From: Pirellula staleyi DSM 6068
GTDB taxonomy: Bacteria; Planctomycetota; Planctomycetia; Pirellulales; Pirellulaceae
DNA length: 45,038 nt
Assembly: GCA_945900945.1 (NCBI GenBank)
Contig: CAMDKL010000029.1
Location: 1-45,038 of the forward strand
Direction of reading: 5' to 3'
Part shown: piece by piece, positions 223 through 18,202 of the stretch
How the letters are laid out: each line of letters begins with the position of its first letter
Numbering within the stretch: position 1 is the first letter of the stretch
The notes under the pieces: model-generated
What the model saw: the letters and a program-made list of their open reading frames with translations, nothing else
Databases searched by the model: none
Told to the model about the DNA's origin: nothing
Translations under genes and position numbers: made by a program

Positions 223-1428
223 CTACAGCTTCAAATCCATGATCGAAAAATCGTCGTCCAGAACGTCGCCACCTTTGAGCATTCGAACGTGCTTGATGAG
301 ACGGTCCATTGCGTTTTGTTCCGAGTCCTCCGGTTGGGACATGAATTGCATGAACTCGCGAAACGTCCACATGACTCCATCCTGTTTGTCGATTTCAAAC
401 ACGCCATCGCTGTAAATAAAAATCCTTGCGTTCTCAGGAACGATGATCTCCTTCTGTTCAAAGTCATCCCACTCGAACATACCGACACCCGGGTTCAAGG
501 ACTCCAACTCCACAGGAGCTGTTTGACCCGGCTTGAAGAGCAAGGCAGACGGATGGCCACCCGCACACCATACGAGCCGCCGCGTTTTGGGTTCAAACAC
601 ACCGTACCACATCGTAAAGGTGCGCCCATCCTGCTCCTCCATCTTGAACGTGTTGTTCAACGCCGATAGCACTTGGCTCGGATTCGCGAAATCAACATTC
701 GGCAGAGCTCGAGCGCGAAGCACATTCGAGACCGTAACGCCCAGCAAGGCAGAAGCCAGCCCATGTCCTGTTACATCTAACAAGAAGACAGCAAAACGGT
801 CTTCATCCAATGGAAAATAGCCGAGGGAATCACCCCCTAACTCTGCACTTGGCACGAACCGCCAATCGATCTGAAACGGTTCTTGGATAGGTGGTGGAAT
901 CAAAGAGGCAACATACTTGGCGCCTGTTTCCATCTCGTGAGTCATGCGTTGTTCGCTCAAGGACAGTTTCGTGAACATCTCATTCCGTTCCAGGAGATTC
1001 AGGTAAGCTCGCGAGTGGTAGCGGATCCGTGCGATCAGCTCGATCCGGTCTGGTAGTTTCACCAAATAGTCGTTGGCTCCCAGTCCGAATGCTTCTGCTT
1101 TGGTTTTTGGATCCTCGGTCGACGAAAGCACAATCAGCGGAGTTTCCCGGGTGGCAGAATGGGACCGAAAGAACTTTACCAAAGTTAGCCCATCGACCTC
1201 TGGCATTACCAAATCCTGAAGGATGACAGTCGGCTTGAGGTTCGTAGCCATCTCGATCGATTCAAACGGGTTTTGGCAGAAATGAAATTGAATGTCGGGT
1301 TCATCCGCCAGCATTCGTTTGATTGCCTGACCAACGATTGCTTGGTCGTCGACTAACAAAACGACGGGGCCCTTTGGTTGGGTTGCCGTATTGGAATTGG
1401 AGTTGGAAATTCCTGACATGCGATTCAT
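223..1428 (-). CDS. Response regulator with PP2C (SpoIIE/RsbU-type) phosphatase output
   Basis: A 401-residue soluble protein in two parts. Residues about 20-140 form a receiver domain with the acidic pair D27-D28, phospho-acceptor D72 (in QDLVMPEVDG), the LSST switch threonine/serine and the VKLPD lysine. A short helical linker leads into a SpoIIE-type PP2C domain, about 175-401, with GGDSLGY, LLDVTGHG, YSDGVFE and a final DDDFS. The metal-binding aspartates are therefore present and it should be an active serine/threonine phosphatase. Proteins of this build (HsbR, RsbU relatives) dephosphorylate STAS anti-anti-sigma proteins when their receiver is phosphorylated. It is divergent from the chemosensory operon and is the most likely CheA~P target, as no stand-alone cheY is present. 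Two ATG starts (1428, 1419) are possible; neither has a strong ribosome site. Confidence 0.9.
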   Translation of the reverse strand: MNRMSGISNSNSNTATQPKGPVVLLVDDQAIVGQAIKRMLADEPDIQFHFCQNPFESIEMATNLKPTVILQDLVMPEVDGLTLVKFFRSHSATRETPLIVLSSTEDPKTKAEAFGLGANDYLVKLPDRIELIARIRYHSRAYLNLLERNEMFTKLSLSEQRMTHEMETGAKYVASLIPPPIQEPFQIDWRFVPSAELGGDSLGYFPLDEDRFAVFLLDVTGHGLASALLGVTVSNVLRARALPNVDFANPSQVLSALNNTFKMEEQDGRTFTMWYGVFEPKTRRLVWCAGGHPSALLFKPGQTAPVELESLNPGVGMFEWDDFEQKEIIVPENARIFIYSDGVFEIDKQDGVMWTFREFMQFMSQPEDSEQNAMDRLIKHVRMLKGGDVLDDDFSIMDLKL

Positions 1429-1557
1429 CCTAGATTGTTTTCCCTAAAACCCACTCGACGTTACAATCGATCCAATCTACCTCAGCGTCACATTTCCGTC
1501 GCGGAAAGTGTTCAGCTTTATTAGGATCGTTGCTTCTTAATTGAATCTCGACCTGTC

Positions 1558-1569
1558 TAGTCTAGACTA
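1558..1569. promoter_or_regulatory. 12-bp perfect palindrome in the divergent phosphatase/chemosensory promoter region
   Basis: TAGTCTAGACTA is identical to its reverse complement, and flanking GTC and AGAC extend a looser symmetry. It lies about 40-50 bases before the Hpt-STAS start, in the 180-base gap between the divergent phosphatase gene and the chemosensory operon. Its position suits an operator shared by both transcripts. No convincing -35/-10 pair could be fixed in this gap. The palindrome is seen; the operator role is inference. Confidence 0.4.
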
Positions 1570-1608
1570 AGACCTAAGGTTTTCCATTTGAAAGTAAAGG
1601 AATCACGC

Positions 1609-2448
1609 GTGAGCTACGACCACAACGAAATGATGCTGGAGCTTTTCCGCGTCGAAGTCGAAACACACGCAGCATCGCTCACCAACGGACTTCTCAAACT
1701 GGAACATGACTCCAATACGCCCGGCTTGCTCGATGGGATGATGCGTGCCGCACATTCCATCAAAGGAGCTGCAAGGATTGTAAGGATTATGCCTGCCGTC
1801 GAGGTTTCTCATGTGATGGAAGACTGCTTTGTCGCCGCTCAACGGGGCGAATTGTTGCTGGAACCAAGCGGTATAGACGTACTGCTTCAATCGGTGGATT
1901 TGCTTGCTCAAATCTCTAACGAGTCCAAAAACGACACTGCCGACTGGAATTCTTTCCAGGACATAACCGCGTCTACTGTTGCACAATTGCGTTGCGTCTT
2001 GCAAGGACGGCCCGTTGTTTCGAACGTTGAGGAAATCAGACCAATGGAGCAGGTTGCGAAACCTGAAATAAAAACATTGGCTCCGAACCTTGTCGTCCCC
2101 GTAATCCAGTCAGTAGCGAAACAAACTCCTGTCCGACCTGAAACAAAAAAGCAGTCCAATCATTTACTCGTGCCCTCGATGCTATTGGCAAAAAACGCAG
2201 AGGCTTTGCGTCAAGAATTGTTAGCGGCATTTGCACACATACCGCCATACCACGAAATTGTTTTGGACTTGTCCAAAACCGAGGATCTGGACGCAATCGG
2301 CTTGGCCTTGCTGCACTCAGCTATCCTCTATGCGGAAAAAGGCAATCGAGAACTGAAGCTCCAACATGCTTCCCCCATCGTTCGCCGAGTTCTCTCTGCG
2401 ATGGGTATTGCTAGTTTGGCTTCTCGAAACGAGGGCCAGGATGGTTAG
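1609..2448 (+). CDS. Hpt-STAS fusion protein of the chemosensory cluster
   Basis: Residues 1-110 are a histidine phosphotransfer domain with the acceptor His49 in RAAHSIKGAAR. Residues about 185-279 look like a STAS domain (VLDLSKTEDLDAIGLALL). A 70-residue Pro/Lys/Glu-rich linker joins them. In SpoIIAA-type STAS proteins the DSSG motif carries the phosphoserine; here it reads DAIG, so that site is absent, as in MlaB-like STAS domains often found beside chemotaxis genes. GTG at 1609 is chosen because AAAGGA sits 7 bases upstream; TTG at 1588 (with AAGG upstream) is the alternative and adds 7 residues. The 3' end overlaps cheA by 8 bases, so translation is probably coupled. Likely role: phosphate carrier and/or protein-binding partner for CheA or the REC-PP2C phosphatase. 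Confidence 0.8.
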   Translation: MSYDHNEMMLELFRVEVETHAASLTNGLLKLEHDSNTPGLLDGMMRAAHSIKGAARIVRIMPAVEVSHVMEDCFVAAQRGELLLEPSGIDVLLQSVDLLAQISNESKNDTADWNSFQDITASTVAQLRCVLQGRPVVSNVEEIRPMEQVAKPEIKTLAPNLVVPVIQSVAKQTPVRPETKKQSNHLLVPSMLLAKNAEALRQELLAAFAHIPPYHEIVLDLSKTEDLDAIGLALLHSAILYAEKGNRELKLQHASPIVRRVLSAMGIASLASRNEGQDG

Positions 2449-5400
2449 CATACCGAATACTTTACGTACGGATTTTGTTGTTGAGTCGCGAGAGCACTTA
2501 CTCGTCTTAGAAAACGCGATGCTTTCCATAGAAAATGCCGTGAACGCGTCGGATGTTCGCGAATGCATCGACACCAGCTTGCGAGCGATGCACTCGCTAA
2601 AAGGCAACGCCGGGTTTATGGGCTTTCATACGGTACAGAAGTTAGCCCATGCGACCGAGAGCGTCCTCGAAAACTACCGAGATAGTTCGGGCGCACCGCC
2701 AAGATCAGCCGTAGAAACGATACTGGTTACCAATGATCGTCTTGCGGCAATGCTGGATGATTTGGACCATAGCGATTCACAAGATATTAGCAGTCTGTTG
2801 CTTCGACTCGATGGCATCGTTGCTTCTCCGCCGGATAATTCTTCAGTCGATTTGGTGCACGAAGCAACGACGGCATTTCAAGTCCGACTGCCTTCGGCAC
2901 CTTTCGAAATCCTTGCCATGCTCGACGCTATCGGTGCGATCGCGACGATGCGAACGGTGAATTGGCCTGAATGGGATTTAACCGCAAGCGTCGACAGTTG
3001 GGACGATTCAGAACTTGACGTCGAAGTTGAGTTGAATGCCAATTCAACAATTTTTGACCTTCATCGTCAGATGTCACTGCACATTCCCGATATGCATTGG
3101 AGGGAGCTTGGTGCCGTCGATCTACGAACATGGGTGTTTAGCGACAGCCAGGGCATCCTAAAGCAATTTCACGAACAATTCCCGCAACTCGCCGGGGAAC
3201 TCCATTATGAACCCGCCGATTTGGCAACTGGCGTTCCAACGTCCGTTGTTTGGATAGCCAGTGGAAAGCCGATCGCTACGATTGAGAGCACACCAATCGA
3301 ACAACCATCGCCCGAGCTTAACCCAATCCCTGTACCATCCGAATCAGTGCGAGCTGCTCCCAAGACCGAGCCACTCGCATTACCAACGCAGGGATCCAAC
3401 TCAGCAAGTGTCGACAGAACCGAAAATCTGGATAGTGCGGTCACCAAACAATTCGGCGCTGCTACGGTACCTAATGCGGTACCTAATTTGGGTGCCGAAC
3501 GCTCCGTTAGTTTGCGTATACATGTCGAACTGTTAGATCGACTGATGAATTTGGTTGGCGAATTAACTCTGGTCCGCAACCAAGCCTTGCTCGCGTTCGG
3601 CGAATTGGATGGCACTCCGCGTGCGGTCATCCAACGCCTCAATTCGGTCACCTCCGAATTACAAGTTTCTGTACTCAAAACGCGGATGCAGCCCGTCGGC
3701 AGTCTCTTTGACCGTTTCCCTAGAATGGTGCGAGATCTCAGTCGGCAACTCGGCAAGGAGATAGAGCTCGTAACGGTCGGACAGGAAGTGGAGCTCGACA
3801 AAACTGTTTTGGAACAGCTTTCCGACCCCCTGATTCATCTCATTCGAAACAGCATTGACCACGGATTGGAAACACCCAGAGTACGCCTTCATGCAGGCAA
3901 GCCACGTATTGGAAAGGTGACGTTGTCCGCCAAGACGGCAGACGGACAAGTCGTAATCGAGGTCCGAGACGATGGACGCGGCATTGATCCGAACGCGATA
4001 CGAAGTAAAGTTTTGGCCCTCGGGCTCAAGACGGAAGCCGAATTGTCAAAGATCTCGCCCAAGGAACTTTACTCCTATATTTTGCTCCCAGGTTTCTCAA
4101 CAGCCAAACAAGTTAGTGATGTTTCCGGTCGCGGCGTTGGAATGGACGTCGTTCGGACCAACATTGAACGGCTTGAAGGATCGTTGACCATCGATTCGAA
4201 ACCCGGAAAGGGAACTTCGATGGTCATGCGAGTTCCACTTACGCTAGCGATCATTCCCTGTTTGATCGTAACGGTTGGAGAGGAACGATTCGCTATTCCT
4301 CAACGTGGGCTGGAGGAGATCGTGTGTTTGTACCCAGGAGGACAGGGCGCAATCGAACATGCATACGACACGGAGATGTATCGACTCAGGGAAGTTCTGC
4401 TGCCGGTCGTTCGATATGCGGAAGTGCTGAGGCGGACGAAACCGTTCGATGCGGCCGTGAAATGCGAGATAATGGCTGCCAACAAACCAGAGCTGCGAGA
4501 TCCAAAGCGGATTGAGTACATATTGGTCCTTCGAACAGGAGACAGGAAGTTCGGCCTGCTGGTGGATGACGTTCGAGGGACGGTGGAAGTCGTCGTCAAG
4601 CCGATGCATCCATCGCTAAAAAAAATCGGTATCTTCGCGGGTGCTACGCTCATGGGAGATGGCTGTGTCTCGCTGATCTCCAACATCGACGGTGTTGCCG
4701 AGCATGCAGGTTGCTTCGGAGTCGAAACAATTGCGAAAGAGGAAACGCTCCGAGACGCCGCCGAAGTGCATCGCGTTTTATTGTTTGAATATGGACCGGA
4801 AGAACAATTTGCGGTTCCCTTGGTCCAAGTGCGTCGGATCGAATCGATATCCATGGATCGAGTAGAACACGTGGGAAATCAAAGTTTTATCACGATTGAA
4901 GGGGTAGCGACACGCATTGTTCATCTCGACAAGTACCTGAATGTTTCGTCTTGTGATCCGTTGCCGGAAATGCATTTGCTGCTTCCGAAGTTTGTTCGCG
5001 AGCCGATGGGAATACTGGTTTCGAGAATCATTGATTCTGATTCGCTTGCCATAGAAATACATGAAGTTGCGGTGGATGATCCAGGCATTTTGGGCACAGC
5101 CATTGTTCGTGGACGTCTAGCGCTCTTCTTAGACACGCAGTATCTCCGTGAAAAGATCTTCGGTTCGATTTCAGACAAGCAATTGATTGGAAAAAGGGCA
5201 TCGGATGGTGCCGAAGACGACGCCACAAGATCCCCTTATGAACCAGTCAACGGTTCCCACCGTCTACTGCTTGTTGACGATACTCGGTTTTTTCGAGAAG
5301 TGGTCAAACGGTACTTTGAGCGGGAAGGGATTTCGGTCGTGACAGCGGTGGATGGAATCGATGGAATGCGCAAACTGGCCAGCGAATCCTTCGACCTGGT

Positions 5401-5626
5401 TGTATCCGATATCGAGATGCCCAACATGAATGGTTGGCAGTTTTGCACAGCAGCCAGAAAAGAGGGATACAAGACCAAATTTCTAGCTCTCTCATCGCTT
5501 AACAAGGCCGATAACGAGAGCCGGGCGAAAGCGTGTGGTTTCGATGGCTTTGAAGAAAAGCTCAACCACGATCGCTTGATTGTAACGGTTCGAAAACTCT
5601 TAGGTGTCGAAAGCGAGGAGGGGTAA
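2441..5626 (+). CDS. cheA: Hybrid chemotaxis histidine kinase CheA with C-terminal receiver
   Basis: 1061 residues from ATG 2441, which overlaps the preceding stop; the frame is open further upstream to 2366 but that would run into the Hpt-STAS gene. Order: Hpt domain with acceptor His51 (AMHSLKG); a poorly conserved response-regulator-binding-like region to about 290; Pro-rich linker; dimerisation helices near 362 (LMNLVGELT); HATPase with N-box NSIDHGLETP (about 466), DDGRGID (about 509) and GRGVGMDVV (about 562); a CheW-like domain about 600-740; a second CheW-like domain about 776-900; and a receiver about 941-1058 with VDD, phospho-acceptor aspartate near 990 (VSDIEMPNMNG) and a lysine in EEKLN. 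It phosphorylates itself and then receivers in response to chemoreceptor state. The double CheW plus receiver makes it much longer than E. coli CheA (about 650 residues). The terminal receiver may act as a phosphate sink. Confidence 0.95.
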   Translation: MVSIPNTLRTDFVVESREHLLVLENAMLSIENAVNASDVRECIDTSLRAMHSLKGNAGFMGFHTVQKLAHATESVLENYRDSSGAPPRSAVETILVTNDRLAAMLDDLDHSDSQDISSLLLRLDGIVASPPDNSSVDLVHEATTAFQVRLPSAPFEILAMLDAIGAIATMRTVNWPEWDLTASVDSWDDSELDVEVELNANSTIFDLHRQMSLHIPDMHWRELGAVDLRTWVFSDSQGILKQFHEQFPQLAGELHYEPADLATGVPTSVVWIASGKPIATIESTPIEQPSPELNPIPVPSESVRAAPKTEPLALPTQGSNSASVDRTENLDSAVTKQFGAATVPNAVPNLGAERSVSLRIHVELLDRLMNLVGELTLVRNQALLAFGELDGTPRAVIQRLNSVTSELQVSVLKTRMQPVGSLFDRFPRMVRDLSRQLGKEIELVTVGQEVELDKTVLEQLSDPLIHLIRNSIDHGLETPRVRLHAGKPRIGKVTLSAKTADGQVVIEVRDDGRGIDPNAIRSKVLALGLKTEAELSKISPKELYSYILLPGFSTAKQVSDVSGRGVGMDVVRTNIERLEGSLTIDSKPGKGTSMVMRVPLTLAIIPCLIVTVGEERFAIPQRGLEEIVCLYPGGQGAIEHAYDTEMYRLREVLLPVVRYAEVLRRTKPFDAAVKCEIMAANKPELRDPKRIEYILVLRTGDRKFGLLVDDVRGTVEVVVKPMHPSLKKIGIFAGATLMGDGCVSLISNIDGVAEHAGCFGVETIAKEETLRDAAEVHRVLLFEYGPEEQFAVPLVQVRRIESISMDRVEHVGNQSFITIEGVATRIVHLDKYLNVSSCDPLPEMHLLLPKFVREPMGILVSRIIDSDSLAIEIHEVAVDDPGILGTAIVRGRLALFLDTQYLREKIFGSISDKQLIGKRASDGAEDDATRSPYEPVNGSHRLLLVDDTRFFREVVKRYFEREGISVVTAVDGIDGMRKLASESFDLVVSDIEMPNMNGWQFCTAARKEGYKTKFLALSSLNKADNESRAKACGFDGFEEKLNHDRLIVTVRKLLGVESEEG

Positions 5627-6100
5627 ATGATCGATCAGCCAACCATGTTTTGCACATTCAGGGCAGCCGGGCGTTTGTTTGGCATACCCTTGGCCGACAT
5701 CAAGGAAGTAACGGACGACGTTACCTGCACTCGCATCCCGCATGCGCCGTTTGGTGTACGTGGGTATATCAATATTCGGGGTCAGATTATCCTCGGATTG
5801 GACTTGAAGCAACTGCTCGAACTGCTCGTGGAGAACGCGGAGGATGCTCGTCGTTTGGTTATTTTTAAGCCTACAATCGGGCAAGCATTTGGACTGTTTG
5901 TCGATCATGTCGGCGAAATCGTCGAGGTACCAAGAAGCGATCTGGAATCTGGCGAATCGGCCAAACTTGGGCTGGCGTCAAGCGGGCGCGGTGGGTTGAT
6001 CGAACGAGTTGTCCGACTCCCTGAGCAATTATTGGTAGTCCTCAATCCACGAAAATTTCTGCCCATCATTGAAATCGAAAGCCAAAGCACGAATAACTGA
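5627..6100 (+). CDS. cheW: Chemotaxis adaptor CheW
   Basis: 157 residues, essentially one CheW domain: [19 protein letters not shown] at the start, then [23 protein letters not shown], the hallmark of the family. It couples chemoreceptors to CheA at the inner face of the membrane. The ATG follows the cheA stop with no gap and GAGGAGGGG just upstream is a very strong ribosome site inside the cheA tail. Length is typical of stand-alone CheW. With the two CheW-like domains of CheA the array has three different adaptor surfaces. Confidence 0.95.
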
Positions 6101-6111
6101 AGAGAAACATC

Positions 6112-7965
6112 ATGAAGAACCTCAAGCTAAGTACCAAGTTAATTTTGTTGACGTCTATCCTGTCAGGATTTCTATTGCTAACGGGATGGGTTGGACAGTC
6201 TCGGCTTTCTACCCTTAATCGAAACAACGAAATCTGGAGCAAACAGACCATTACGAAAGTGGTGGCCGCAGCAGAGGTCCGAAGCAAGCTATTTGAAGTC
6301 ATTCGGTCCCAGAAAAATGCAGTGCTAGCTAGCACGGATAGTGAGTCGGCGGAATTCGCGGTTGCGAGTGAGGCTGCAGCAAGAGACCTACGGCGATTGG
6401 TCGAAGGATTGGATAATGCATTGACTGCACCCACTGCGAAGGACTTGGCCGCTAGATTGTTGGACAACGTCGATGTCTTAACTGGCTTAAACAAACAATG
6501 CCTGGAATTGGCGAAAGAAAACACTGCCGACTCGAAGGCTAAGTCGATTGTTATTTCCATCAAACAATCCAAAGAGGTGACAGATGAATTACTCCTGCAC
6601 CTCAATGAGATCAAGACCATGTTTGAACGAGAAGCCAATGATGGAGTGATTGCGAGTCAAGTTATTTATAACAAGAGTGTTTTCTACATTGTTGGTATGA
6701 CTGCGTCGGGGTTAATTCTCGGTTTTGTTGCGTCGTTCTTTGTTTCCCGTTCGATTTCGCGGCCCATCTCTCTCTTGAAGAATCTCGCCGTGGAAATGGC
6801 TAGTGGTAATCTTATGTCTCGCGTCAATCTCTCGCAAAAGGATGAGGTTGGAGAATTGGCGACAGCTACCGACTCCCTGGCCGATTCGTTAGCGAGTGTC
6901 GTAAAGAAAATTAAGAATGCATCGTCGGAACTGGTATCTTCGTCGAGTGATCTTGGCAGCATCGCCCAATCGCTAATCTCGCAAAGCGCGTCTACTTCAA
7001 CCCGAGCCAGCGATGCGTCAGTGTCCTCCGTCCAATTGTCGACGAATATTAGCACGATGAGTTCGGCCGCCGAGGAATTGAGTATTAGCTTCGCAGCGAT
7101 TTCGGCTGCGACGGAGGAAATGAGCGTTTCGGTTGGAGCAATCTCATCAGCCGCAGAGCAAACCTCCAACAATGTCGCAGCCGTTTCAAGCGCCTTTCAC
7201 GCGATATCCGATGCGTTTGAGCAGGTGTTAGGCAATGTACGGAGCGGAGCTCAAGTTGCCAGCAATGCAAGCCAAATGGCGGACTCGGCAACCGCAACGA
7301 TGCAGCTTCTCGATCGCTCGAGCACTGAGATTAGCAAAGTAACCGAGACCATTAAGATGATTGCCCTGCAGACCAACCTCCTGGCCCTGAATGCGACCAT
7401 CGAGGCAGCTTCGGCTGGTGAAGCCGGCAAGGGATTTGCGGTCGTGGCTCATGAAATCAAACAACTCGCGAACCAGAGTGCGAGGGCTGCCGAAGACATT
7501 GCAACGAAAATCGAAGGCGTCCAGACTGGAACCCGACAAGCTGTCGGTGTTATACAGCAAATCGCTGGCGTGATCAAAGAAATCAACCTATCAGCCGACG
7601 GGATTTCCAAGTCGGTTGAGCAACAGAGCCGCGCTGCACAAACGATTTCTCACAATATTCATGAAGCAAATTCCGGGGTCGGGCAAATTGCTCGGTCCAT
7701 TGCCGAAGTCGCAGCAACAGCAAATGACATGGCTCGCAGCATTGCTGAAGCCACCCGAGGAGCCAACGACGTGTCTAGAAATGTTGGTCAAGCTGCCTTG
7801 GTGGCGTCGTCGATTGCGGATACAATCGGCGAGGTCAGCAAAGCGACGATTGAAACAAATCGGTCTGCAAACGGGGTCATGACAGAATCCAAGGACCTCT
7901 CACAACTATCCGTCGAGCTTTCCCAGATCGCTTCCCAATTCAAAATACCCAACAATGGTTTGTAG
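6112..7965 (+). CDS. Methyl-accepting chemotaxis protein (two-TM chemoreceptor)
   Basis: 617 residues. A membrane segment near residues 8-28 is followed by an extracytoplasmic helical ligand domain of about 155 residues resembling the four-helix-bundle MCP type, a second membrane segment near 190-212, a HAMP domain ([18 protein letters not shown]) to about 265, and a long alanine/serine-rich signalling coiled coil. The hairpin tip near residue 417 reads [21 protein letters not shown], the CheA/CheW contact site. The C-terminus (QFKIPNNGL) lacks the NWETF-type CheR/CheB tether of E. coli Tar/Tsr. It starts 12 bases after cheW with an AGAGAAA-like ribosome site and overlaps cheB by 11 bases. 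The ligand cannot be read from sequence. It is the only receptor in the window and presumably the dedicated input. Confidence 0.95.
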
Positions 7966-9064
7966 CCCAATACGGATATTGATTGTGGACGATTCGCGAA
8001 TCTTTCGCGGCATTTTGGAAAGCGTAATCTCGAAGCTTCCGGATGCGGTGATTGTTGGGTCTGTATTCAATGGAGAAAAAGCACTTGAGTTTCTGCGTCG
8101 CACTCCTGTCGATCTAGTAACACTCGATATCGAGATGCCGGGCGTCAGTGGACTTGAGACGCTCAAAGCGATTCGCGAGTTGAATCGTTCGCAGCCAAAT
8201 GCGGTTCAAACCGAAGCGGTTTTGATCAGCTCCCTCACCAAACAAGGCGCCAAAAGTACGGTCGAGGGACTCCAGCTTGGTGCGATTGACTTTATCCTGA
8301 AGCCGAATGGGGGATCCGAGGCGGAGAATTTGGCTTCGTTGCACAGTGCATTGCTTTCCACTTTGCAGCTGTTTCGAATGAAATATGCTTCACGATCCAG
8401 TTCGGTAACCGGTCGAGTGGAACCCCCGAAGCATACGGTATCGGGAGTTGATTCACGGACAACCAAACCGCTGGCGTCCGGCTACAAAGCGATTGCCATC
8501 GGTATTTCAACCGGGGGGCCAGAGACTCTCGCAAAAATGCTTCCCGATCTTGTGGGGAAAACCAAGGCACCGATCTTTATTGTCCAGCATAACCTGAATG
8601 GACTCAGTGGGTACATGGCAGACAGTCTAACGCGACGTCTCGGCCAAAGCGTTTCAGAGGCTCAGGAGAATATGGCCGTCGTTCCTGGGGGAGTCTACAT
8701 GGCGCAGAGCGGCAGCCATATGATTCTTCGGCAGCCTGGCGGAAACATCACGATCGGCTTGAGCGACGCTCCTCCGGAAAATCACTCTCGGCCAGCCGTC
8801 GACGTGTTTTTAAGGTCTGCGTCTGCTGTTTATGGACCGACATTAGTTTCTGCCATCATGACAGGAATGCTCGACGATGGAGCCAAGGGCGTTCGCGTGG
8901 TAAAACGAGCAGGCGGATTCGTGATCGCTCAAGACCAAGCTACGAGTGTAATATGGGGTATGCCACGCGCTGCAATTGAAACGGGTTGCGTGGACTTGGT
9001 GTTGCCTTTAGACAAGTTAGCGTCAGCGCTGCTTGAGCTGACTAAAAGAATGCGCGACACATGA
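7955..9064 (+). CDS. cheB: Protein-glutamate methylesterase CheB
   Basis: 369 residues. N-terminal receiver with D12-D13 and phospho-acceptor D58 (VTLDIEMPG), and a C-terminal methylesterase from about residue 175. The esterase has the catalytic serine in [10 protein letters not shown], histidine in IVQHNLNG and aspartate in [10 protein letters not shown]. It removes methyl groups from, and deamidates, receptor glutamates/glutamines when phosphorylated by CheA, giving adaptation. The start overlaps the receptor gene by 11 bases and the end overlaps cheR by 4 (ATGA), so all three are translationally coupled. Length matches family norm (about 350). Confidence 0.95.
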
Positions 9065-9939
9065 ATTTATCAGACCAAGAATTTAAAGACATCCGACTCG
9101 TCGTTCTACGACTCAGCGGGATTTGGCTTGGTGAGGACAAGCAGTATTTGATTCGTTCAAGACTAGAACCCATTTTGCGACTCAATAAATTATCAAGCTA
9201 TGCAGAATTGGTATTGCGATCGGCCGGCATCGCGGGTCTGGCTCTGCAAGAAGAAATCATCGAGGCAATTACGACGAAAGAGACGTCGTTCAATAGAGAT
9301 GGTCACCCGTTCGATGAGTTTCGGCGAACACTCTTGCCAGAGTTGATCCGAAATAAATTCGATAGACAACGCAGTATCGGCTTGCCATTTGGGAAATTGA
9401 GGATTTGGTCGGCGGCCTCTTCCACCGGGAATGAAGCATACAGTTTGGCGATGACCATCTTAGAGTACATCGAAACGCAACCTCAAAATGGGCTCAATCC
9501 AATTCGTTTGACTGCGGACAGTTTTCAAATATTGGCCAGCGACATATCGGAACAAGCGTTACAGAAAGCACGCGAAGGAAGTTATTACGAATGGGAGCTG
9601 GATCGAGGACTTTCAAACGAATGGAAGCTAAAGTACTTTGAAAAGAGCGACAGTCATTTTACCATCCAGCCGACAATTCGGGCCATGGTGGAATTCAAGC
9701 GAATAAATCTCATTAAACCTTTTGCAGACATCAACGGCTTCGACTTGGTACTGTGTCGAAATTTGCTTATTTATTTCGATCAAAACACGCGACGAGAGAT
9801 TGTGGATAAACTAGTAAACTCGTTAACGCAGGGCGGCATACTTATGTTGGGCGCGTCCGAGAGTCTTACGGTCTTGCCAAAAGGGCTCGTGCAAAGTCAA
9901 GTAGGCCGAACCGTCGTCTATCGAAAAACGGGCACTTAG
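9061..9939 (+). CDS. cheR: Chemotaxis methyltransferase CheR
   Basis: 292 residues. N-terminal helical CheR domain with ITTKETSFNRDGHPF, then a SAM-binding Rossmann domain with IWSAASSTGNEAYSLAM and the FDLVLCRNLLIYFD signature. It adds methyl groups from SAM to receptor glutamates, opposing CheB. ATG lies in the ATGA overlap with cheB. It is the last gene of the chemosensory operon and ends 9 bases from the convergent kinase/nucleotidyltransferase relic. No tetratricopeptide extension is present, so this is the plain short form. Confidence 0.95.
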   Translation: MNLSDQEFKDIRLVVLRLSGIWLGEDKQYLIRSRLEPILRLNKLSSYAELVLRSAGIAGLALQEEIIEAITTKETSFNRDGHPFDEFRRTLLPELIRNKFDRQRSIGLPFGKLRIWSAASSTGNEAYSLAMTILEYIETQPQNGLNPIRLTADSFQILASDISEQALQKAREGSYYEWELDRGLSNEWKLKYFEKSDSHFTIQPTIRAMVEFKRINLIKPFADINGFDLVLCRNLLIYFDQNTRREIVDKLVNSLTQGGILMLGASESLTVLPKGLVQSQVGRTVVYRKTGT

Positions 9940-11299: not shown

Positions 11300-12307
11300 C
11301 TACTCCTCGATTTGCGATACTTCACCGCCATTTGGCGTACCTAGTGCACGCCAAATCGGTAGCGATAAACTCTCCGATAAAAATCGTACCGACCCATCCG
11401 CTAGCCCGATTTGAACACCTCCGATGTGATAACTTCGCGAGGTAACGGCTGCGTAAGTGATATTCGTCGTCGTCTTGCCTTCTCGCGACGAGTTAAAGTC
11501 AATATCGTAAAGCTTGCCCGCGTCGGTATAAGGGACTTTGGTATTGGGGCGAAACGTCATGGTAAATCCAGACTGATGAACGCGGCTATCGACCCATTCA
11601 GTGTGTCCCGAATTGGATTTAAAGCTCCCGCCCAAACCAGCGATATCATTAGGAGAAAGCGGAGGAGTAGTTCCAATTGCACTCGGATTTCCACCATCGC
11701 GCAAGTAAGGTGTCCAGCCCTTTACCTCCGCGAATGCAACCGTGTTGCTCAATCCATCTGAGATAGTAGAAAATGAGTTGCGCCCATTGACGAGGAATAG
11801 ACCCGAACCCGTGCCCCTTGTCGCGGGCGAATACACAAACCACTCCCCCATATTTGCTGCATAGCTGAGCGGGTAATGAGAGAAATTGGGATCAGCAGGT
11901 TGCGGATCCGGTCGAACACGATCGTTCGCTTCACTCGGACAGACGTAGGTGGAGACTCTCGTTTTAGCAACAGTCCCTTGCACCGCGTAACTGAGATTCC
12001 AATCGATCCCGTTTTGAAGATTGGCTTGCTCCAGAAAGGATAACAATCGGGACTGCACAGACCAACTATCGGATACAACATCGGTTCGGTGCACTGCGCT
12101 GGGCGGAACTCGATTGAAAGCGCTATGATAATTGTGGAGCGAGATTCCCATTTGCCGAACATTGTTCGAACAACTCATTCTCCGCGCCGCCTCGCGAGCG
12201 GCTTGAACTGCGGGCAAAAGAAGCCCTACCAGAATGCCAATTATGGCAATAACCACCAACAACTCAACCAACGTAAACGCAGGACGACTTACCGAAACTC
12301 TCATCAT
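11300..12307 (-). CDS. DUF1559 prepilin-like protein
   Basis: 335 residues. The N-terminus is a type IV prepilin-like leader and hydrophobic helix: [19 protein letters not shown], then [17 protein letters not shown], diagnostic of the very large planctomycete DUF1559 family. The C-terminus has the usual [16 protein letters not shown] and a Gly-Gly-Glu-Val end, so the protein is full length. It is expected to be cleaved by a prepilin peptidase and sit at the inner membrane or in a pseudopilus; the precise job is unknown for the family. It has its own upstream promoter candidate at 12427-12455 and sits between two decayed gene groups, apparently intact. Confidence 0.9.
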
Positions 12308-12492: not shown

Positions 12493-12841
12493 TCACGATA
12501 TTCCACTCCGTCCTGCATGGGTCTTACAAAAGTGATTGTTTTGCCAAACGGGGCTGAGGCCGGTGAGGACGGCGGAGCGCGTAGGCGAATAGAGCGGGCT
12601 GGCAGAGTAGGCCCGAGTGGATGTCATACCGCGTTTTGCGAGTCGGTCGAGGTTGGGGCGTCTGGTGGAATTTGCTGTGACCGTAGAGTGATGTATCGGC
12701 CCAACCGAGGTCGTCTGCAAGGATGAAGACAACATTGGGCTAAGTCTCGGCATAAACCGATTGGCACGACAGCGCGAAGGAGCCAAGGATTGGGAGATAA
12801 ACAAAAAGGGCGAGGCGAAATCTCAATGGTTCTCTCTGCAA
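12493..12841 (-). pseudogene. Sulfatase relic 2: N-terminal part, active-site cysteine lost
   Basis: From TTG 12841 the frame encodes a signal peptide ([17 protein letters not shown]...VYAET), a TAG at 12742-12740 where a lysine or glutamine is expected, then [20 protein letters not shown], the metal-binding start of formylglycine sulfatases. An extra C in a four-base run at 12655-12658 shifts the frame; the next frame continues [32 protein letters not shown]. The sulfatase signature C/S-x-P-x-R here begins with Tyr (TAT, 12589-12591), so the residue converted to formylglycine is gone. After LTGLSP the homology stops and a TGA closes it. Nonsense, frameshift, active-site loss and truncation together make it dead. 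Confidence 0.85.
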
Positions 12842-12852
12842 GTTTGAACTTA

Positions 12853-13308
12853 TTACTTTCTTGCACCGCCAGGAGTAATGGTGGTGACGGGTTCGCCGGC
12901 CAAGAGTGGATTCCCAAAAACACCTTGCGAGTCACCCTGCTGTTTCATCCATGCATCCAAGTCATTACGAAGCTCGGCCAAGCGTGAGGCTTGGAGCGGA
13001 TCCGTGGCAAGATTATTCCATTCGAACGGATCGACGGCGAGATCATAGAGTTCTTCAGCGGGTCGCGTTGTGTAGCGATTTACGGTCTCCGCAGCGGTAG
13101 CGTCCTTCTTCGCAGCGTCCAGTCAAGTTTTCCAATACACGAGGCCGCTGGGCCCGCTCGACCGCGAAATGTGAGTGTGATGCTGGAACTCGGGATGCAG
13201 GTTGCGAATGTACTTCCAGTTCTGCGTTCGCACAGCGCGGATGGGATAAACGTTGAAGTCGCCATCGCCGATATGTGTTGCGAAGATGTGTTCGTTTCTC
13301 CGGTTGTG
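12853..13308 (-). pseudogene. Sulfatase relic 1: C-terminal part with in-frame TGA
   Basis: The minus strand encodes the C-terminal third of an arylsulfatase: EHIFATHIGDGDFNVYPIR, RTQNWKYIRNLHPEF, then after an in-frame TGA at 13125-13123 (where Trp would fit) LDAAKKDATAA, RPAEELYDLAVDPFEWNNLA and LDAWMKQQGD, ending at TAA 12853. The ELYDL..DP.E..NLA block is typical of sulfatase C-termini. It lies upstream of the N-terminal relic, so these are remains of two tandem genes, not one split gene. The 5' end abuts the 64-bp repeat at 13289-13352 after a stop at 13311-13309. Confidence 0.8.
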
Positions 13309-13352
13309 TCAGCGGGTGATGGTTATGCCAGTTTACTTAGGTACAGTTGCTT
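13289..13352. repeat. Dispersed 64-bp repeat, copy A
   Basis: Matches 26352-26415 at 55 of 64 positions without gaps, including an identical 22-base core (ggtgatggttatgccagttt and on). Copy B is the leader of the GxxExxY gene, ending at its start codon. Copy A sits between the stop codon of myo-inositol oxygenase and the sulfatase relic, with no GxxExxY gene attached. Confidence 0.8.
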
Positions 13353-14217
13353 ACCATTCGATTTGGCGAGGAAAAAACTCTGCGATCAACTCCTCATAGA
13401 AGGGCCTTAATGTGGCGACATCCATGCGTTCGTCCCGTTTTGTATAGAGATCGTATTGATTGAAATCATTGACCCAGACAAACATTTCGCGATCGCGATC
13501 GTTCAAGAGAGATTGATATGCATGTTCGCGGTGAATCGGATAGCAAGAGTGGTAGCGAATCATGTACAGCCCAGGCAGGGGCAAGAAGTCTTTGACAACG
13601 TGGTACAAATATTCGTCGTGCCCCCAAGACAGCAGGACTTGATCTAACCCACAGCCCGATTCGTAGATACCCAACTCGGTCTGGTACCGAACGTTATGGA
13701 AATCCTCGTTCGCATGGAAAGCTTCGTAAAAGACGATCTTTTCGGAGTAGCGACAGCCAACAGGGAACGTATCACCGACGACTGCCCACTGAGGCTCATC
13801 CCACAAACAAAGGATCTTGCCTAGATCGTGGATGAGCCCGGTCAGAATATACCATCGTGGTCGGCCCGCCTTGCGAATGGCTTCAGCCGTTTGCAGTAAA
13901 TGCTCAATCTGTGGGAGATCAATATCGGGGTCGCTATCATCGACAAGCGTATTTAGGTACTCCATCGCGTCCCAAATACCCATACGACGTTGGTTGAGAG
14001 ACAGATAATGCTCACGCTTGTGTTTCACAAAGTCGAGCGTCTGGTTTTGATGATTCAATCGATAGAACTCCTTAACGCTCGGTCTCGCTTCGGCCGCATA
14101 GTTTCGGAACGATGCCGCAGCATCTAGGGTCGGTTTTGGATAACGCCGGAGCAAATCATCTTCCCATTCGTCCAAACTGACCAAGGGTTGATCGCTATTT
14201 GGGTTGTTAGATTTCAC
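13351..14217 (-). CDS. Myo-inositol oxygenase (inositol to D-glucuronate)
   Basis: 288 residues, matching the size of the animal enzyme (about 285). It is an HD-domain-like di-iron oxygenase: [42 protein letters not shown] and [10 protein letters not shown] supply the iron ligands, and [12 protein letters not shown] with the C-terminal IEW ending are family features. It uses O2 to cleave the ring of myo-inositol to D-glucuronate. It is the last gene after a sugar-type ABC importer on the same strand, from which it is separated by a 190-base stretch of three repeats. The pairing implies that the importer carries inositol. Its stop codon touches repeat copy A, but the conserved C-terminus is intact. 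Confidence 0.93.
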
Positions 14218-14238
14218 GGTAAGATTTCCTTTTATGAT

Positions 14239-14406
14239 GTTTAACCGGCGCAGCCGCGAGATCAGCTAGTATAGCTGCATTCACAACGCCGTGACTTGTT
14301 TAACCGGCGCAGCCGTTGGATCGAGTAGTATAGTTGCATTCACAACGCCCGCCGCTGCGCGGGTTAAACGAGTTGCAGCCGCGAGATCGAGTAGTATAGT
14401 TGCATC
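14239..14406. repeat. Three imperfect tandem repeats of about 45-65 bp
   Basis: Units start near 14239, 14298 and 14364 and share the core cagccg(c/t)(g/t)(a/g)gatc(g)agtagtatag(t/c)tgcat; the first two also share tgtttaaccggcg at the front and tcacaacgcc at the back. They fill the gap between the permease and myo-inositol oxygenase genes. Unequal unit lengths and no spacer structure rule out a CRISPR array. They may be a processing or attenuation site between importer and oxygenase, or a planctomycete dispersed repeat. Confidence 0.8.
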
Positions 14407-14407
14407 T

Positions 14408-15445
14408 CTACTCTTGTCTGCGATTGCGAAATTGATCTATCGACACAGCGGCGATGATAATGATACCGATCATGATATCCTGTGTTGCATTGACGACTCC
14501 CAGTTGATCGCAGCCGCTCGAAATCACACCCATTATCAACGCGCCAGAGAGTGTCCCTAGCACGGAGCCGCGTCCGCCGTTCAAGCTACCACCGCCAATA
14601 ACTACCGCTGCGATAAACTTTAACTCTTTGCCGATGCCTTCACCAGGGTTGGCCATTCGCAGCAAGGAAAACGAGTAAAGTCCCGCGATACCAAACAAAA
14701 CTCCTGCCAACGCATAAACAACCAATTTCGTCCCAAACACGTTGACACCGCAGAGCCTCGCAGTCGCTTCGTTCGATCCCACTGCTAGTACATGCCTTCC
14801 AAAAACAGTAAGCGACAAAATGATCGCCACCACTACGGAAATTGCCAATGCAAACCATACGCCGCTAGGAATATTTGGCAACCAACCATACCAATGCGGG
14901 GGTGCGGTAGACGTGAATTTGGTCATCCATTCCGGAATTCGCTTACGATCTACAAAGACCGTCGAACTGTTTGCCAGGTGTTTTGCAATCCCGAGGAAAA
15001 TGGTCATCGAACCCAACGTCACGATGAACGGCGGGATTCGAAGAATGCCGATGAACAAACCGTTGAACAATCCGCAGACCGCTCCAGTGCCTACCGCGGC
15101 GAGCACCGCGATCGCGACCGGACAATCGGCGTTGAGAGTGCATGCAAGCACGGTAGCACATAACATACTCGCTGTTCCAGCCGATAGATCAATGCCACCC
15201 GTCATGATAATCAAAGTCATACCTAACGCCGCTACCGCCACAGGTGCCGTAAATACTAAAATGACGCGAGCATTTCGAATCTCGATGAAACGACCTTGTC
15301 CCCAGACTTGGTCTGCTATCGCAAAGCCCAACGTAACGAGAATCAGCGCCATCAGCGGCCCCAGCCGTTCCATCCACCATCGCCAACGGAATTGCGAATC
15401 CGCTTTTTTTATACGACTTCTCATAGGTCCCATGATTCTGAGCAC
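14408..15445 (-). CDS. ABC sugar-type importer, permease (RbsC-like; probably inositol)
   Basis: 345 residues, mostly hydrophobic, with about eight to ten membrane spans. It shows the BPD_transp_2 signature: TLIIMTGGIDLSAGT near residue 80, PPFIVTLGSMTIFLG near 145, and a final AAVVIGGGSLNGGRGSVLGTLSGALIMG. This is the ribose/xylose/inositol permease family. GTG 15445 is the longest start; ATGs at 15433 and 15424 fit equally well. It is the third gene in the binding protein, ATPase, permease, myo-inositol oxygenase series. The inositol call is inference from the oxygenase; the family also moves ribose, xylose and galactose. Confidence 0.92.
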   Translation of the reverse strand: MLRIMGPMRSRIKKADSQFRWRWWMERLGPLMALILVTLGFAIADQVWGQGRFIEIRNARVILVFTAPVAVAALGMTLIIMTGGIDLSAGTASMLCATVLACTLNADCPVAIAVLAAVGTGAVCGLFNGLFIGILRIPPFIVTLGSMTIFLGIAKHLANSSTVFVDRKRIPEWMTKFTSTAPPHWYGWLPNIPSGVWFALAISVVVAIILSLTVFGRHVLAVGSNEATARLCGVNVFGTKLVVYALAGVLFGIAGLYSFSLLRMANPGEGIGKELKFIAAVVIGGGSLNGGRGSVLGTLSGALIMGVISSGCDQLGVVNATQDIMIGIIIIAAVSIDQFRNRRQE

Positions 15446-15507
15446 TCCAATCTTGGTGGCATTCGCCGGGAAGTGTCTTTTTTAAATTGTTTCGATCGGT
15501 GTTGTAT

Positions 15508-17043
15508 TCACGCCGTTACCTTCTCCGGTTCGATGTCGTTGTCCAAGGCTATGGCTACCGAAAGGACTTCGCTCTCTGTCCATTCGCATGCTGCCCTTAG
15601 CTCGCGAAGCTTCCCCCGCGACATGACCCCTACTGTATCGCAGACGGCCAGTAGCTCTGGCAGGTACGAACTCACAAAGATGATACTCTTACCCTCTCTG
15701 GCTAGTTCCCCAATCAGTCGATAAATCTCTGCTTTGGTCCCGACGTCAATGCCACGGGTTGGCTCATCTAATAGCAATATCCTTGCGTCTTGGTGCAGGA
15801 CGCGAGCGATTGCGACCTTCTGCTGGTTGCCGCCAGACAATTGGCCAATGGTTTGTTCTGGACCGTGGGCCTTGATGGACAATCGCGTCATCCATTTCTC
15901 GACCGCCACATGTCGACGCTTGAGCCTCAATAGCCCACCTACACTGTATTGATGGATCGCAGAAAGGGTTAGATTGTCTGCAATGGAGAGTTTCTGGGCT
16001 AAGCCTTCGCCTTTTCGATCTTCGGAAACCAGTCCGAAACCGGCAGCGATGCGAGCCCGCGGGCTCGCAGTTGGAAAGCGACCGTTGAGTTGGACTCGCC
16101 CCTTCGCAACGCGATCGAGTCCAAATAGGCATCGTAGTGTTTCCGTTCGCCCCGCTCCGATCAAGCCGAATAGGCCAAGGATCTCGCCTCGACGCAATTC
16201 CATACTGACTCTACATGGCATTCTCCGGCCTTCCATTCGATCCACTAGCATGGTTGGTTCACCCATCGCATGTTGTATGGTCGGAAAAAGATTTTCAACG
16301 CTGCGACCAATCATCAGGGACACGATCTGCTCATCGTTGGTATCCGACAGGCAACCTGCTCCCGCCGTTTGTCCATCGCGCAGCACGACGTATCGCGTGG
16401 CGATTTCGCGTATTTCCTCGAGGAAATGGCTGATATAAATGATCGCTAGCCCCTGCTCTTGCAATCGCGTGATGATCGCAAACAGTCGCTGGACATCGTG
16501 TCGCGACAATGAACTCGTCGGCTCGTCGAAGATCATGACACGTGCATCCGAGACCAATGCTCTTGCAATTTCCACCACTTGCTGCACCCCTATCGACAAT
16601 GAACCGACGCATCGTTGCGGGCTCAGGTCGGCATGGCCAAGGAGCGCCAGCGCTCGACGGATTTTCTCGCGCTGTTCACCCGTCCGCACAAATCCAAATC
16701 GACTGTGCTCACATCCCAGCATGATATTGTCTTCCACAGTCAAATCACGGGCCAAATTCAGCTCTTGATAAATCATGGCGATACCAGCGCGCCTTGCGTC
16801 CACAGGTCGCATTGGCTGAAACGGTCGACCATTCAATTCAATGGAGCCAGAATCGGGAGAATGGGCACCTGAGAGTACTTTCATCAACGTACTTTTGCCG
16901 GCGCCGTTCTCGCCGATCAGTGCAAGCGTCTCACCTCCGAACGCCTCCAGGGACACATCGTGCAGGGCCTGCGTAGCACCGAATCGTTTTGCAATCCGGT
17001 CCATGACTAGCAATGGGGTACGTACGTCGACGGCTAAGTTCAT
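15508..17043 (-). CDS. ABC sugar-type importer, double ATPase (RbsA/MglA-like)
   Basis: 511 residues with two tandem ABC domains, typical for the family. First domain: Walker A GENGAGKST, signature LSIGVQQVVEIARAL, Walker B VMIFDEPTSSLS. Second domain: degenerate P-loop GLIGAGRTET, intact signature LSGGNQQKVAIARVL, Walker B LLLDEPTRGIDVG. The one-good, one-degenerate P-loop arrangement is normal here. It powers import of the sugar or polyol captured by the lipoprotein. The start lies 12 bases after the end of the binding-protein gene. Confidence 0.95.
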   Translation of the reverse strand: MNLAVDVRTPLLVMDRIAKRFGATQALHDVSLEAFGGETLALIGENGAGKSTLMKVLSGAHSPDSGSIELNGRPFQPMRPVDARRAGIAMIYQELNLARDLTVEDNIMLGCEHSRFGFVRTGEQREKIRRALALLGHADLSPQRCVGSLSIGVQQVVEIARALVSDARVMIFDEPTSSLSRHDVQRLFAIITRLQEQGLAIIYISHFLEEIREIATRYVVLRDGQTAGAGCLSDTNDEQIVSLMIGRSVENLFPTIQHAMGEPTMLVDRMEGRRMPCRVSMELRRGEILGLFGLIGAGRTETLRCLFGLDRVAKGRVQLNGRFPTASPRARIAAGFGLVSEDRKGEGLAQKLSIADNLTLSAIHQYSVGGLLRLKRRHVAVEKWMTRLSIKAHGPEQTIGQLSGGNQQKVAIARVLHQDARILLLDEPTRGIDVGTKAEIYRLIGELAREGKSIIFVSSYLPELLAVCDTVGVMSRGKLRELRAACEWTESEVLSVAIALDNDIEPEKVTA

Positions 17044-17055
17044 AGACGTTGGCGG

Positions 17056-18075: not shown

Positions 18076-18102
18076 GGGAAATACCTTGTATGTGGTTGTC
18101 TG

Positions 18103-18202
18103 AACTGCGGGCGCTAGCCGCGTTAGGAAATGCATAAAGCCTCGGTTGTGCCGCAAGCGACACAACCAGCGAATTCAGGCCCGGGGCTAGCGCCCGCCGG
18201 TT
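18103..18202. repeat. 100-bp fold-back element upstream of the importer operon
   Basis: Outer arms GCGGGCGCTAGCC (18107-18119) and GGCTAGCGCCCGC (18185-18197) are exact inverted repeats, extended loosely by GAAC/GTTC. An inner pair, GGTTGTG and CACAACC (about 18144-18167), makes a second hairpin in the loop. It lies 28 bases before the binding-protein start, so it is in the leader or promoter region. Resembles REP-like repeats scattered in planctomycete genomes. Confidence 0.8.

Follow-up and report, generated by a model that had tools for sequence, protein, structure and literature searches.

The window analysed here is a stretch of 45,038 nucleotides of Pirellula staleyi DSM 6068. Between its positions 223 and 9,939 lie seven genes of a chemosensory cluster, all of which were found at their predicted positions with key residues intact by a Pfam scan and alignment. 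The first gene (223..1428, reverse strand) encodes a response regulator, REC-PP2C, with a WspR-type receiver (1021-1362), a long helical stem and a SpoIIE/PP2C phosphatase (235-807), as assigned from Pfam, a receiver tree and a structural model. These are its only two Pfam domains: the output is SpoIIE/PP2C instead of a GGDEF diguanylate cyclase, and the third, kinase domain of the HsbR-type regulator is absent. A divergent intergenic sequence (1429..1608) separates this gene from the che operon on the forward strand. The operon begins with an Hpt-STAS protein (1609..2448) combining a WspE-type Hpt (1633-1911, His56) with a STAS domain (2140-2412, Ala236), both assigned from Pfam and the Hpt also from a tree. 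Its open reading frame opens at 1588; the likely start is the GTG at 1609, and two relatives begin with MSYDPNEMM there. The hybrid CheA (2441..5626; Pfam, tree) has its own Hpt, H-kinase_dim, HATPase, two CheW domains and a C-terminal receiver; its reading frame opens at 2366, the ATG at 2441 being the likely start, which overlaps the stop of the Hpt-STAS gene. Pfam identified the products that follow as CheW (5627..6100), a chemoreceptor with 4HB_MCP ligand domain, HAMP and MCP signalling domain (6112..7965), a CheB methylesterase with receiver (7955..9064) and a CheR methyltransferase of 292 amino acids (9061..9939), in which the scan found no TPR family.

The Pfam assignments confirm the original prediction of an operon for receptor, CheW, hybrid CheA, CheB and CheR with a divergent REC-PP2C gene. 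As had also been predicted, the seven genes do not include a stand-alone CheY; by Pfam, CheC, CheD and CheX are missing from them as well. The gene order, Hpt-STAS, CheA, CheW, MCP, CheB and CheR, the last without TPR, is not wspA-B-C-D-E-F-R.

Lineages of the receiver, Hpt and STAS domains

The receiver residues D27/D28, D72, S102 and K124 and the phosphatase residues D200, D218, D341 and D393, which we take to be catalytic, are invariant in all ten aligned sequences, the window's included, in keeping with the predicted completeness of both domains. The best PDB sequence matches of REC-PP2C are the WspR structures 3i5a and 3bre (179.6 and 174.5 bits, residues 19-163), which cover only the receiver and the start of the stem; RssB of P. 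aeruginosa scores 118.9 bits over both domains. Identity to WspR persists to about residue 158 and then drops to 0.02. As aligned, the homology to WspR ends inside the coiled-coil stem, and a SpoIIE/PP2C phosphatase replaces the diguanylate cyclase. In the predicted model, a single helix (128-175) connects receiver and phosphatase. The top structural match of the protein is RssB, and SiaA-PP2C is also among the structural matches.

A tree of receivers separated 96 WspR-type receivers, four of them from REC-GGDEF proteins, from nine others, including those of seven other REC-PP2Cs (SH-aLRT 99); it is a quick tree, without bootstraps like all the trees used here, with 48 of its 102 inner branches open, long branches to the outgroup and a Paracoccus row filled to only 32%. 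The eight receivers of window-type clusters are scattered over it, requiring six changes, so that, with the open branches, one acquisition and several are not distinguishable. An HsbR/RssB-like lineage was rejected: the WspR structures score far higher, and the tree splits the receiver from other REC-PP2Cs. The HptB/HsbR/HsbA lineage of the original prediction thus gives way to a Wsp lineage, with a WspE Hpt and a WspR receiver, RssB having served in this comparison as a stand-in for the layout of HsbR.

The Hpt of the Hpt-STAS protein aligns with those of Azoarcus and planctomycete WspE proteins and is placed among them in the tree; on this basis it is WspE-type. The 13 Hpt domains that CheAs of the window class carry themselves form one group (support 83). 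The core of the window CheA is not WspE, since a core tree set 13 window-class cores and one other planctomycete CheA apart from 23 WspE cores with a support of 100; it belongs to another planctomycete CheA class. The lineages of its parts make the cluster a mosaic, in which a WspE-type Hpt and a WspR-type receiver are combined with an unrelated receptor array. A planctomycete array seems to have borrowed the hand-over parts of the surface-sensing Wsp pathway to switch on a protein phosphatase in place of producing the customary messenger, the purpose being probably the control of gene expression.

In the fused STAS domain Ala236 (codon 2293-2295) occupies the phospho-serine column. The serine is absent from all six fused STAS domains (Ala in five, Pro in one) and present in ten of ten comparison STAS (Fisher 1e-4), a set selected by the authors that excludes the window SulP STAS, a small STAS on contig C19 and those of loci L091 and L182. 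Among the aligned sequences, all four unlinked STAS proteins of the same genome keep it. The fused STAS of the window and of L025, L026 and L030 clear the Pfam cut-off of one STAS family; those of L079 and L094 were detected below the cut-off, so that the fused STAS may be decaying and not working. Two of the eight window-type clusters (L027, L054) have an Hpt without STAS, and in two of the eight the WspE-type Hpt is fused to CheA.

Related clusters and partner-switching genes

The divergent REC-PP2C gene is present in eight of eight window-type clusters, the seven besides the window having all been located through that gene, while no REC-PP2C gene adjoins six related cores that were retrieved by way of CheA. 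The original prediction, which would have fallen had the divergent gene not been conserved beside the cluster in relatives, passed this check in the window-type clusters. A WspE-type Hpt accompanies all eight clusters with the divergent gene and none of the six cores without an adjoining REC-PP2C (Fisher 3e-4). Since the seven window-type CheAs in the tree form one group (94), the eight-of-eight pattern may reflect a single acquisition. Some contigs entered from two sources (L028 and L053, L025 and L043, L026 and L044, as judged from their equal length). A close copy occurs in only 2 of 26 same-genus genomes, and the CheA-core search recovered the class in at least 7 of 294 genomes, the own genome included, a lower bound because only two candidates were scored per genome. 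At a threshold of E 1e-25, one bare-core genome (G153) has a WspR-type REC-PP2C elsewhere, in G203 two sequences match at 28-30% identity, and G299, G188 and G076 have no REC-PP2C match; in G263 the match (49%, E 1e-79) spans residues 141-400 only, the phosphatase half. G043 encodes, divergently beside another non-WspE CheA, a nucleotide cyclase that carries a WspR-type receiver.

Among the best 80 database loci of REC-PP2C, a Wsp-type CheA is encoded nearby in 43, which span several phyla; 30 of these show the full order receptor-CheW-CheR-CheW-CheA-CheB. No che gene is in view at 25 of the 80, eight of which are covered for 7 kb or more to either side, so the family can apparently function without an array.

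In line with the connection to partner switching drawn in the original prediction, such genes occur near some related REC-PP2Cs: a HATPase_c_2 and/or STAS gene lies within 2 kb in 7 of these 80 loci (67 of the 80 reach at least 1 kb downstream), and G153 has a run of REC-PP2C, STAS and HATPase genes. With queries from the own genome, seven loci had such genes within 2 kb and three (L051, L075, L110) farther away (binomial 0.004). The corresponding comparison with profiles, in which matches in open reading frames of more than 600 amino acids were dropped, removing L075, gave seven against two loci and a figure of 0.0016 that is biased upward, as the profiles were partly trained on the matches of the own-genome queries. 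In the window-type cluster of G050, an intact-serine STAS gene lies 97 bp downstream of CheR. Searches of the own genome found no partner-switching gene beside the window cluster, nor did own-genome queries and profiles beside its two nearest relatives (L043, L044); the genome does encode stand-alone partner-switch genes with an intact serine.

Putative signal route and its alternatives

The reading that we favour, and hold to be reasonably probable, is a chemosensory system that is non-motor, or not only motor, with a Wsp-derived output stage in which a phosphorelay leads to PP2C and a partner switch. The anatomy, lineages, conserved residues and gene neighbourhoods given above are read from the DNA itself; every phosphotransfer step, the PP2C substrate and the transcriptional outcome are what we infer. 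The predicted route from CheA or Hpt to REC-PP2C remains the best reading. The receptor array would induce autophosphorylation of the hybrid CheA, from which phosphate would pass to the Hpt-STAS protein, whose WspE-type Hpt would act as a separate P1 domain, and on to Asp72 of the WspR-type receiver. This would rearrange the dimeric helical stem and render PP2C active, as has been proposed for RsbU/RssB-type phosphatases (PMC12143880). The active phosphatase would dephosphorylate a stand-alone, intact-serine STAS antagonist encoded elsewhere in the genome, candidates being the RsbV/RsbW-like pair at G000:C6:7222-8048 and the STAS/HATPase genes on C19, whereupon the partner switch would shift and gene expression change. 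Adaptation of the receptor would fall to CheB and CheR, the receiver on CheA probably serves as a sink, and the serine-less STAS may be a binding or docking module without phospho-switch. The Hpt of CheA itself could bypass the Hpt-STAS protein, and the WspE encoded on contig C57 could also phosphorylate the window receiver.

The same genome encodes flagellar motor components, namely FliG (on C21 and also at the end of C7) and FliM (C82), which refutes the notion of an organism without flagellum genes. The N-terminus of FliM, MPDDVLSRNDIESLL, resembles what we take to be a CheY-binding peptide. CheW domains were found by the genome search only in the window cluster and on C57, so a motor-directed CheA would have to be one of these two and a role in motility may apply; the original reading of gene expression rather than a flagellar motor may be too exclusive. 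It is conceivable, if unlikely, that the cluster serves the organism for flagellar chemotaxis and addresses a CheY encoded elsewhere, REC-PP2C being a side branch; this would be compatible with the favoured mechanism. The existence of the CheA core class without an adjoining REC-PP2C fits this, whereas the lack of CheY, CheC, CheD and CheX among the seven genes speaks against it and the dedicated Hpt/receiver pair points to REC-PP2C. Nor was a single-receiver gene found beside the six bare cores in the stretches covered, which in L166 and L169 break off at one cluster end; the L166 cluster is incomplete because it starts near a contig end.

It is rather improbable that PP2C controls a STAS protein whose target is a second-messenger enzyme and not a sigma factor, as in SiaA/SiaC/SiaD of P. 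aeruginosa. SiaABCD is such a pathway (PMC9239204), Wsp governs c-di-GMP in Pseudomonas, and SiaA-PP2C is among the structural matches. In some REC-PP2C operons of the database loci there is also a nucleotide cyclase (L106, L119) or an HD-GYP-like domain (L104) fused to a WspR-type receiver, but none of the seven window genes encodes a cyclase. The HATPase_c_2 neighbours are indecisive here, as SiaB is a kinase of the same sort.

We consider it very improbable that REC-PP2C belongs functionally to the WspE on C57 while the window CheA acts on something else. In favour are the WspR type of the receiver and the presence in the genome of a second, wsp-ordered cluster with a WspE on C57; two REC-PP2Cs of 55% identity coexist. 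However, at its end, in the place of wspR, the C57 cluster has a REC-PP2C of its own, the divergent gene stands beside every window-type cluster, and the window cluster supplies a WspE-type Hpt of its own. Hardly credible is direct action of REC-PP2C on the adjoining Hpt-STAS protein as a classical anti-anti-sigma factor, along the lines of the original prediction: a STAS fold is plausible, albeit with weak matches to RsbV/RsbW-complex chains and SpoIIAA (E 0.07-0.14), but the phospho-serine is missing from all six fused STAS domains, and two clusters lack the STAS altogether.

An extension of the favoured route, speculative and itself unlikely, is that the WspE-Hpt/WspR-receiver pair is a portable plug lifted from Wsp onto an unrelated array, on which the serine-less STAS, as a permanently "dephosphorylated" antagonist, holds an anti-sigma kinase. 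If so, receptor signals would act on a partner switch tethered to the array.

Relation to known systems and meaning of the apparent output swap

The cluster shares with Wsp (WspA-F, WspR) of Pseudomonas the WspE-type Hpt, the WspR-type receiver with the start of its stem and the logic of receptor, CheA, CheB and CheR; it differs in its non-WspE CheA, a CheR without TPR, the gene order, PP2C in place of GGDEF and the additional STAS on the Hpt. The WspH variant of Burkholderia has a histidine kinase output where PP2C is found here (PMC8552884). ACF clusters likewise use a multidomain response regulator as output, and the accessible part of a 2012 census of those with CheR-TPR lists receivers fused to a family-2C phosphatase and a mononucleotidyl cyclase (PMC3447774). 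CheR-TPR is absent here, and that part of the census is silent on receiver lineage, partner-switch neighbours and a detached Hpt-STAS. For PP2C output in Wsp- or ACF-type clusters, a literature search, with subscription papers largely outside it, found this census only.

HptB-HsbR-HsbA of P. aeruginosa has a similar logic, from Hpt via REC-PP2C to a STAS antagonist; however, HsbR carries a kinase/anti-sigma domain as its third, HptB receives its signal from hybrid kinases and not from a receptor array, and the STAS fused here lacks the phospho-serine (PMC6482189). In Bacillus cereus, a methylation-tuned hybrid kinase acts on a REC-PP2C and a partner switch (RsbK-RsbM-RsbY/RsbV/RsbW), with no receptor/CheA/CheW array or separate Hpt described in the text available (PMC4574943). 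A pathway proposed for Campylobacterota also links receiver, PP2C, STAS and chemoreceptors: a REC-bearing PP2C-kinase, itself downstream of an unnamed kinase, acts via STAS on a chemoreceptor, so that signals flow toward the receptor, in contrast to the flow from receptor array to phosphatase suggested here (PMC9239204). PP2Cs with a coiled-coil linker such as RsbU and RssB resemble REC-PP2C in domain layout and helical stem and differ in receiver lineage. Exchange of sensory domains among PP2C, kinase and GGDEF proteins has been proposed (PMC12143880), and the WspR-type REC-PP2C family looks like a natural case of it.

In conclusion, PP2C would add to Wsp-type receivers a third kind of output, a widespread one, next to the diguanylate cyclase of WspR and the histidine kinase of WspH. 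With GGDEF, PP2C, nucleotide cyclase and HD-GYP-like outputs on one receiver type, outputs appear to be swapped naturally near a single point of the coiled-coil stem. Planctomycete "WspR" calls, such as those in PMC6461901 and PMC9119077, may include REC-PP2Cs, and the name WspR should therefore not imply c-di-GMP.

Architecture and relatives of the chemosensory cluster

The window spans all of contig C29 in a 6.47-Mb genome with a completeness rating of 99.96 %; the named matches closest to it are two Pirellula-labelled MAGs (82 and 81 %). Pfam domains bore out the predicted chemosensory cluster with a divergent REC-PP2C gene (223-1428, minus strand). The cluster is a tight plus-strand operon of genes for Hpt-STAS (1609-2448), a hybrid CheA with two CheW domains and one receiver (2441-5626), CheW, a receptor, CheB, and CheR, ending at 9939. 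The start codons of Hpt-STAS and CheA are probably GTG 1609 and ATG 2441, respectively. The key residues of the receiver and the phosphatase in REC-PP2C are invariant in 10/10 aligned sequences. Elsewhere in the window, the minus-strand genes for myo-inositol oxygenase and an ABC transporter (permease, ATPase, and periplasmic binding protein; 13351-18165) look like an operon for inositol uptake and oxidation. A DUF1559 protein (PF07596) is encoded at 11300-12307 (minus strand), and a SulP sulfate permease with a STAS domain, apparently unrelated to the chemosensory cluster, at 22128-23921 (plus strand).

Eight distinct clusters combine a CheA of the window's class with REC-PP2C (window, G017 (=L043), G009 (=L044), G035, G050, L054, L079, and L094). 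The divergent gene is conserved beside all eight, as had been anticipated, seven besides the window having been located via REC-PP2C itself. A WspE-type Hpt, which was not used to find them, is also present in 8/8; in G035 and L054 it is fused to CheA, without STAS. A CheA-only search of 294 genomes of the phylum yielded six bare cores (L166-L171), and neither REC-PP2C nor WspE-type Hpt was in view in any of them (Fisher's test for Hpt in window-type clusters versus bare cores, 3e-4, kinship not corrected for). Of 26 genomes from the genus to which the window belongs, just two carry a close copy of its REC-PP2C gene.

Judged by sequence, the Hpt of Hpt-STAS is of the WspE type and the window CheA is not a WspE. 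This Hpt can be aligned with the Hpts of planctomycete WspEs and with the one encoded in an annotated wsp cluster from Azoarcus. In a tree of CheA cores, seven window-type sequences, the six bare cores, and L038 (one other planctomycete CheA, on a long branch) were separated from 23 WspEs with a support of 100. In the Hpt tree, the extra Hpt falls among those of WspEs, apart from 13 CheA-own Hpts (group support 83).

Exclusion of a flagellar motor as the output, part of the original prediction, is unproven because FliG and FliM are encoded in the genome and CheW domains were found only in the window cluster and in one on contig C57. The FliM N-terminus resembles the CheY-binding motif.

Origin of the REC-PP2C receiver

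The receiver of the window REC-PP2C is, on sequence comparison, of the WspR type. Its top PDB sequence matches are two WspR structures, confined to residues 19-163; the match to P. aeruginosa RssB, likewise built of REC and PP2C, spans both domains but at a lower score, and RssB is the top fold match of the predicted model. A tree of 105 receivers separated 96 of the WspR type (88 with PP2C, four with GGDEF, and four with other outputs) from nine others with a support of 99; seven of the nine come from other REC-PP2C proteins. Compared in 15-residue blocks, the window protein shares an identity of 0.35-0.85 with four REC-GGDEF proteins over residues 24-158 and of 0.02 over 159-173. The same drop-off was seen with the nucleotide cyclase-linked receivers of L106 and L119, and one block earlier with the HD-GYP-like receiver protein of L104. 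As a single helix (128-175) joins receiver and phosphatase in the predicted structure, the model places the change of output within this helical stem.

WspR and WspH are the Wsp outputs described in the portion of PMC8552884 consulted. Excerpts of PMC3447774 list receivers with family-2C phosphatases and nucleotide cyclases in CheR-TPR/ACF clusters, and sensory-domain exchange via coiled-coil linkers is proposed in part of PMC12143880. In the excerpts of the literature searched, no description was found of the WspR origin of the REC-PP2C receiver, of partner-switch neighbors of WspR-type REC-PP2C, or of the mosaic cluster with serine-less Hpt-STAS.

Distribution among wsp-type loci

The C57 cluster has wsp order (receptor, CheW, CheR, CheW, WspE-type CheA, CheB) with, in the wspR position, a REC-PP2C 55 % identical to that of the window. 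A scan of genome contigs confirmed at least 587 relatives. Among the best 80, which were ranked by REC-PP2C match and are thus uninformative on WspR-GGDEF frequency, 43 loci have a wsp-type CheA in view, five a window-type cluster, seven only CheB, and 25 no che gene in view (21, four, two, and eight, respectively, among the 35 loci flanked by 7 kb or more on each side). All five che gene kinds are present in 32 of the 43 wsp-type loci, and 30 have the one-strand order receptor-CheW-CheR-CheW-CheA-CheB. Counting recognized genes only, REC-PP2C directly follows this run in 19 of them and precedes it in eight. By record title, the hosts, mostly MAGs, include planctomycetes, deltaproteobacteria, Lentisphaerae, Acidobacteria, Elusimicrobia, Ignavibacteria, Chlamydiae, and Methylococcaceae.

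Two outputs share one cluster in L066 (Methylococcaceae), where a wsp operon terminating in REC-GGDEF is accompanied by a divergent REC-PP2C with a STAS gene. Genome G043 encodes nucleotide cyclases (PF00211) on WspR-type receivers at L038:6326-7429 and L037:8590-9747; the former lies next to, and divergent from, a further non-WspE CheA with a weak WspE-type Hpt match (32 bits), a window-like layout with another output. Such cyclase receivers also occur shortly 5' of REC-PP2C in wsp-ordered operons (L106:7624-9111 and L119:8338-9798), and an HD-GYP-like domain (PF13487) on a WspR-type receiver adjoins REC-PP2C in a Phycisphaerales wsp operon (L104:6563-7753). Multiple WspE-type Hpt matches were seen in the WspE-like CheAs of L116 (five), L119 (three), and L076 (three). 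CheB lies immediately 5' of REC-PP2C, with no further che genes in view, in L055, L057, L059, L071, L074, L075, and L098, a recurrent pair on contigs some of which are short.

Candidate targets of the phosphatase

The STAS of Hpt-STAS is unlikely to be the phosphatase substrate because the serine of the phosphorylation column is missing from all six Hpt-fused STAS domains (Ala in five, Pro in one); Ser is present in 10/10 comparison domains (four from the window's genome, five from the surroundings of other REC-PP2C clusters, and one from L168). The predicted fold is STAS-like, with weak structural matches. We infer that the fused STAS is a docking module; it is possibly decaying. The L168 STAS (12699-13046), a stand-alone domain with intact serine immediately upstream of the bare-core CheA, is a possible ancestor of it.

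No HATPase_c_2/STAS partner-switch neighbor was found beside the window cluster. Among the best 80 loci, seven have a HATPase_c_2 kinase gene, a STAS gene, or both no more than 2 kb from REC-PP2C (L056, L066, L069, L077, L083, L091, and L093; six of them wsp-type and one without che genes), and two or three, depending on the query, have such genes farther away. Pfam confirmed these neighbors in the loci scanned (L091 was not among them). G153 has consecutive REC-PP2C/STAS/HATPase genes, and in the window-type operon of G050 a STAS gene with intact serine lies 97 bp 3' of CheR. In the window's own genome, contig C6 carries a STAS/HATPase pair, and genes for STAS, HATPase, and PP2C proteins are present on C19. 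Partner-switch STAS proteins may be the targets of the REC-PP2C phosphatase.
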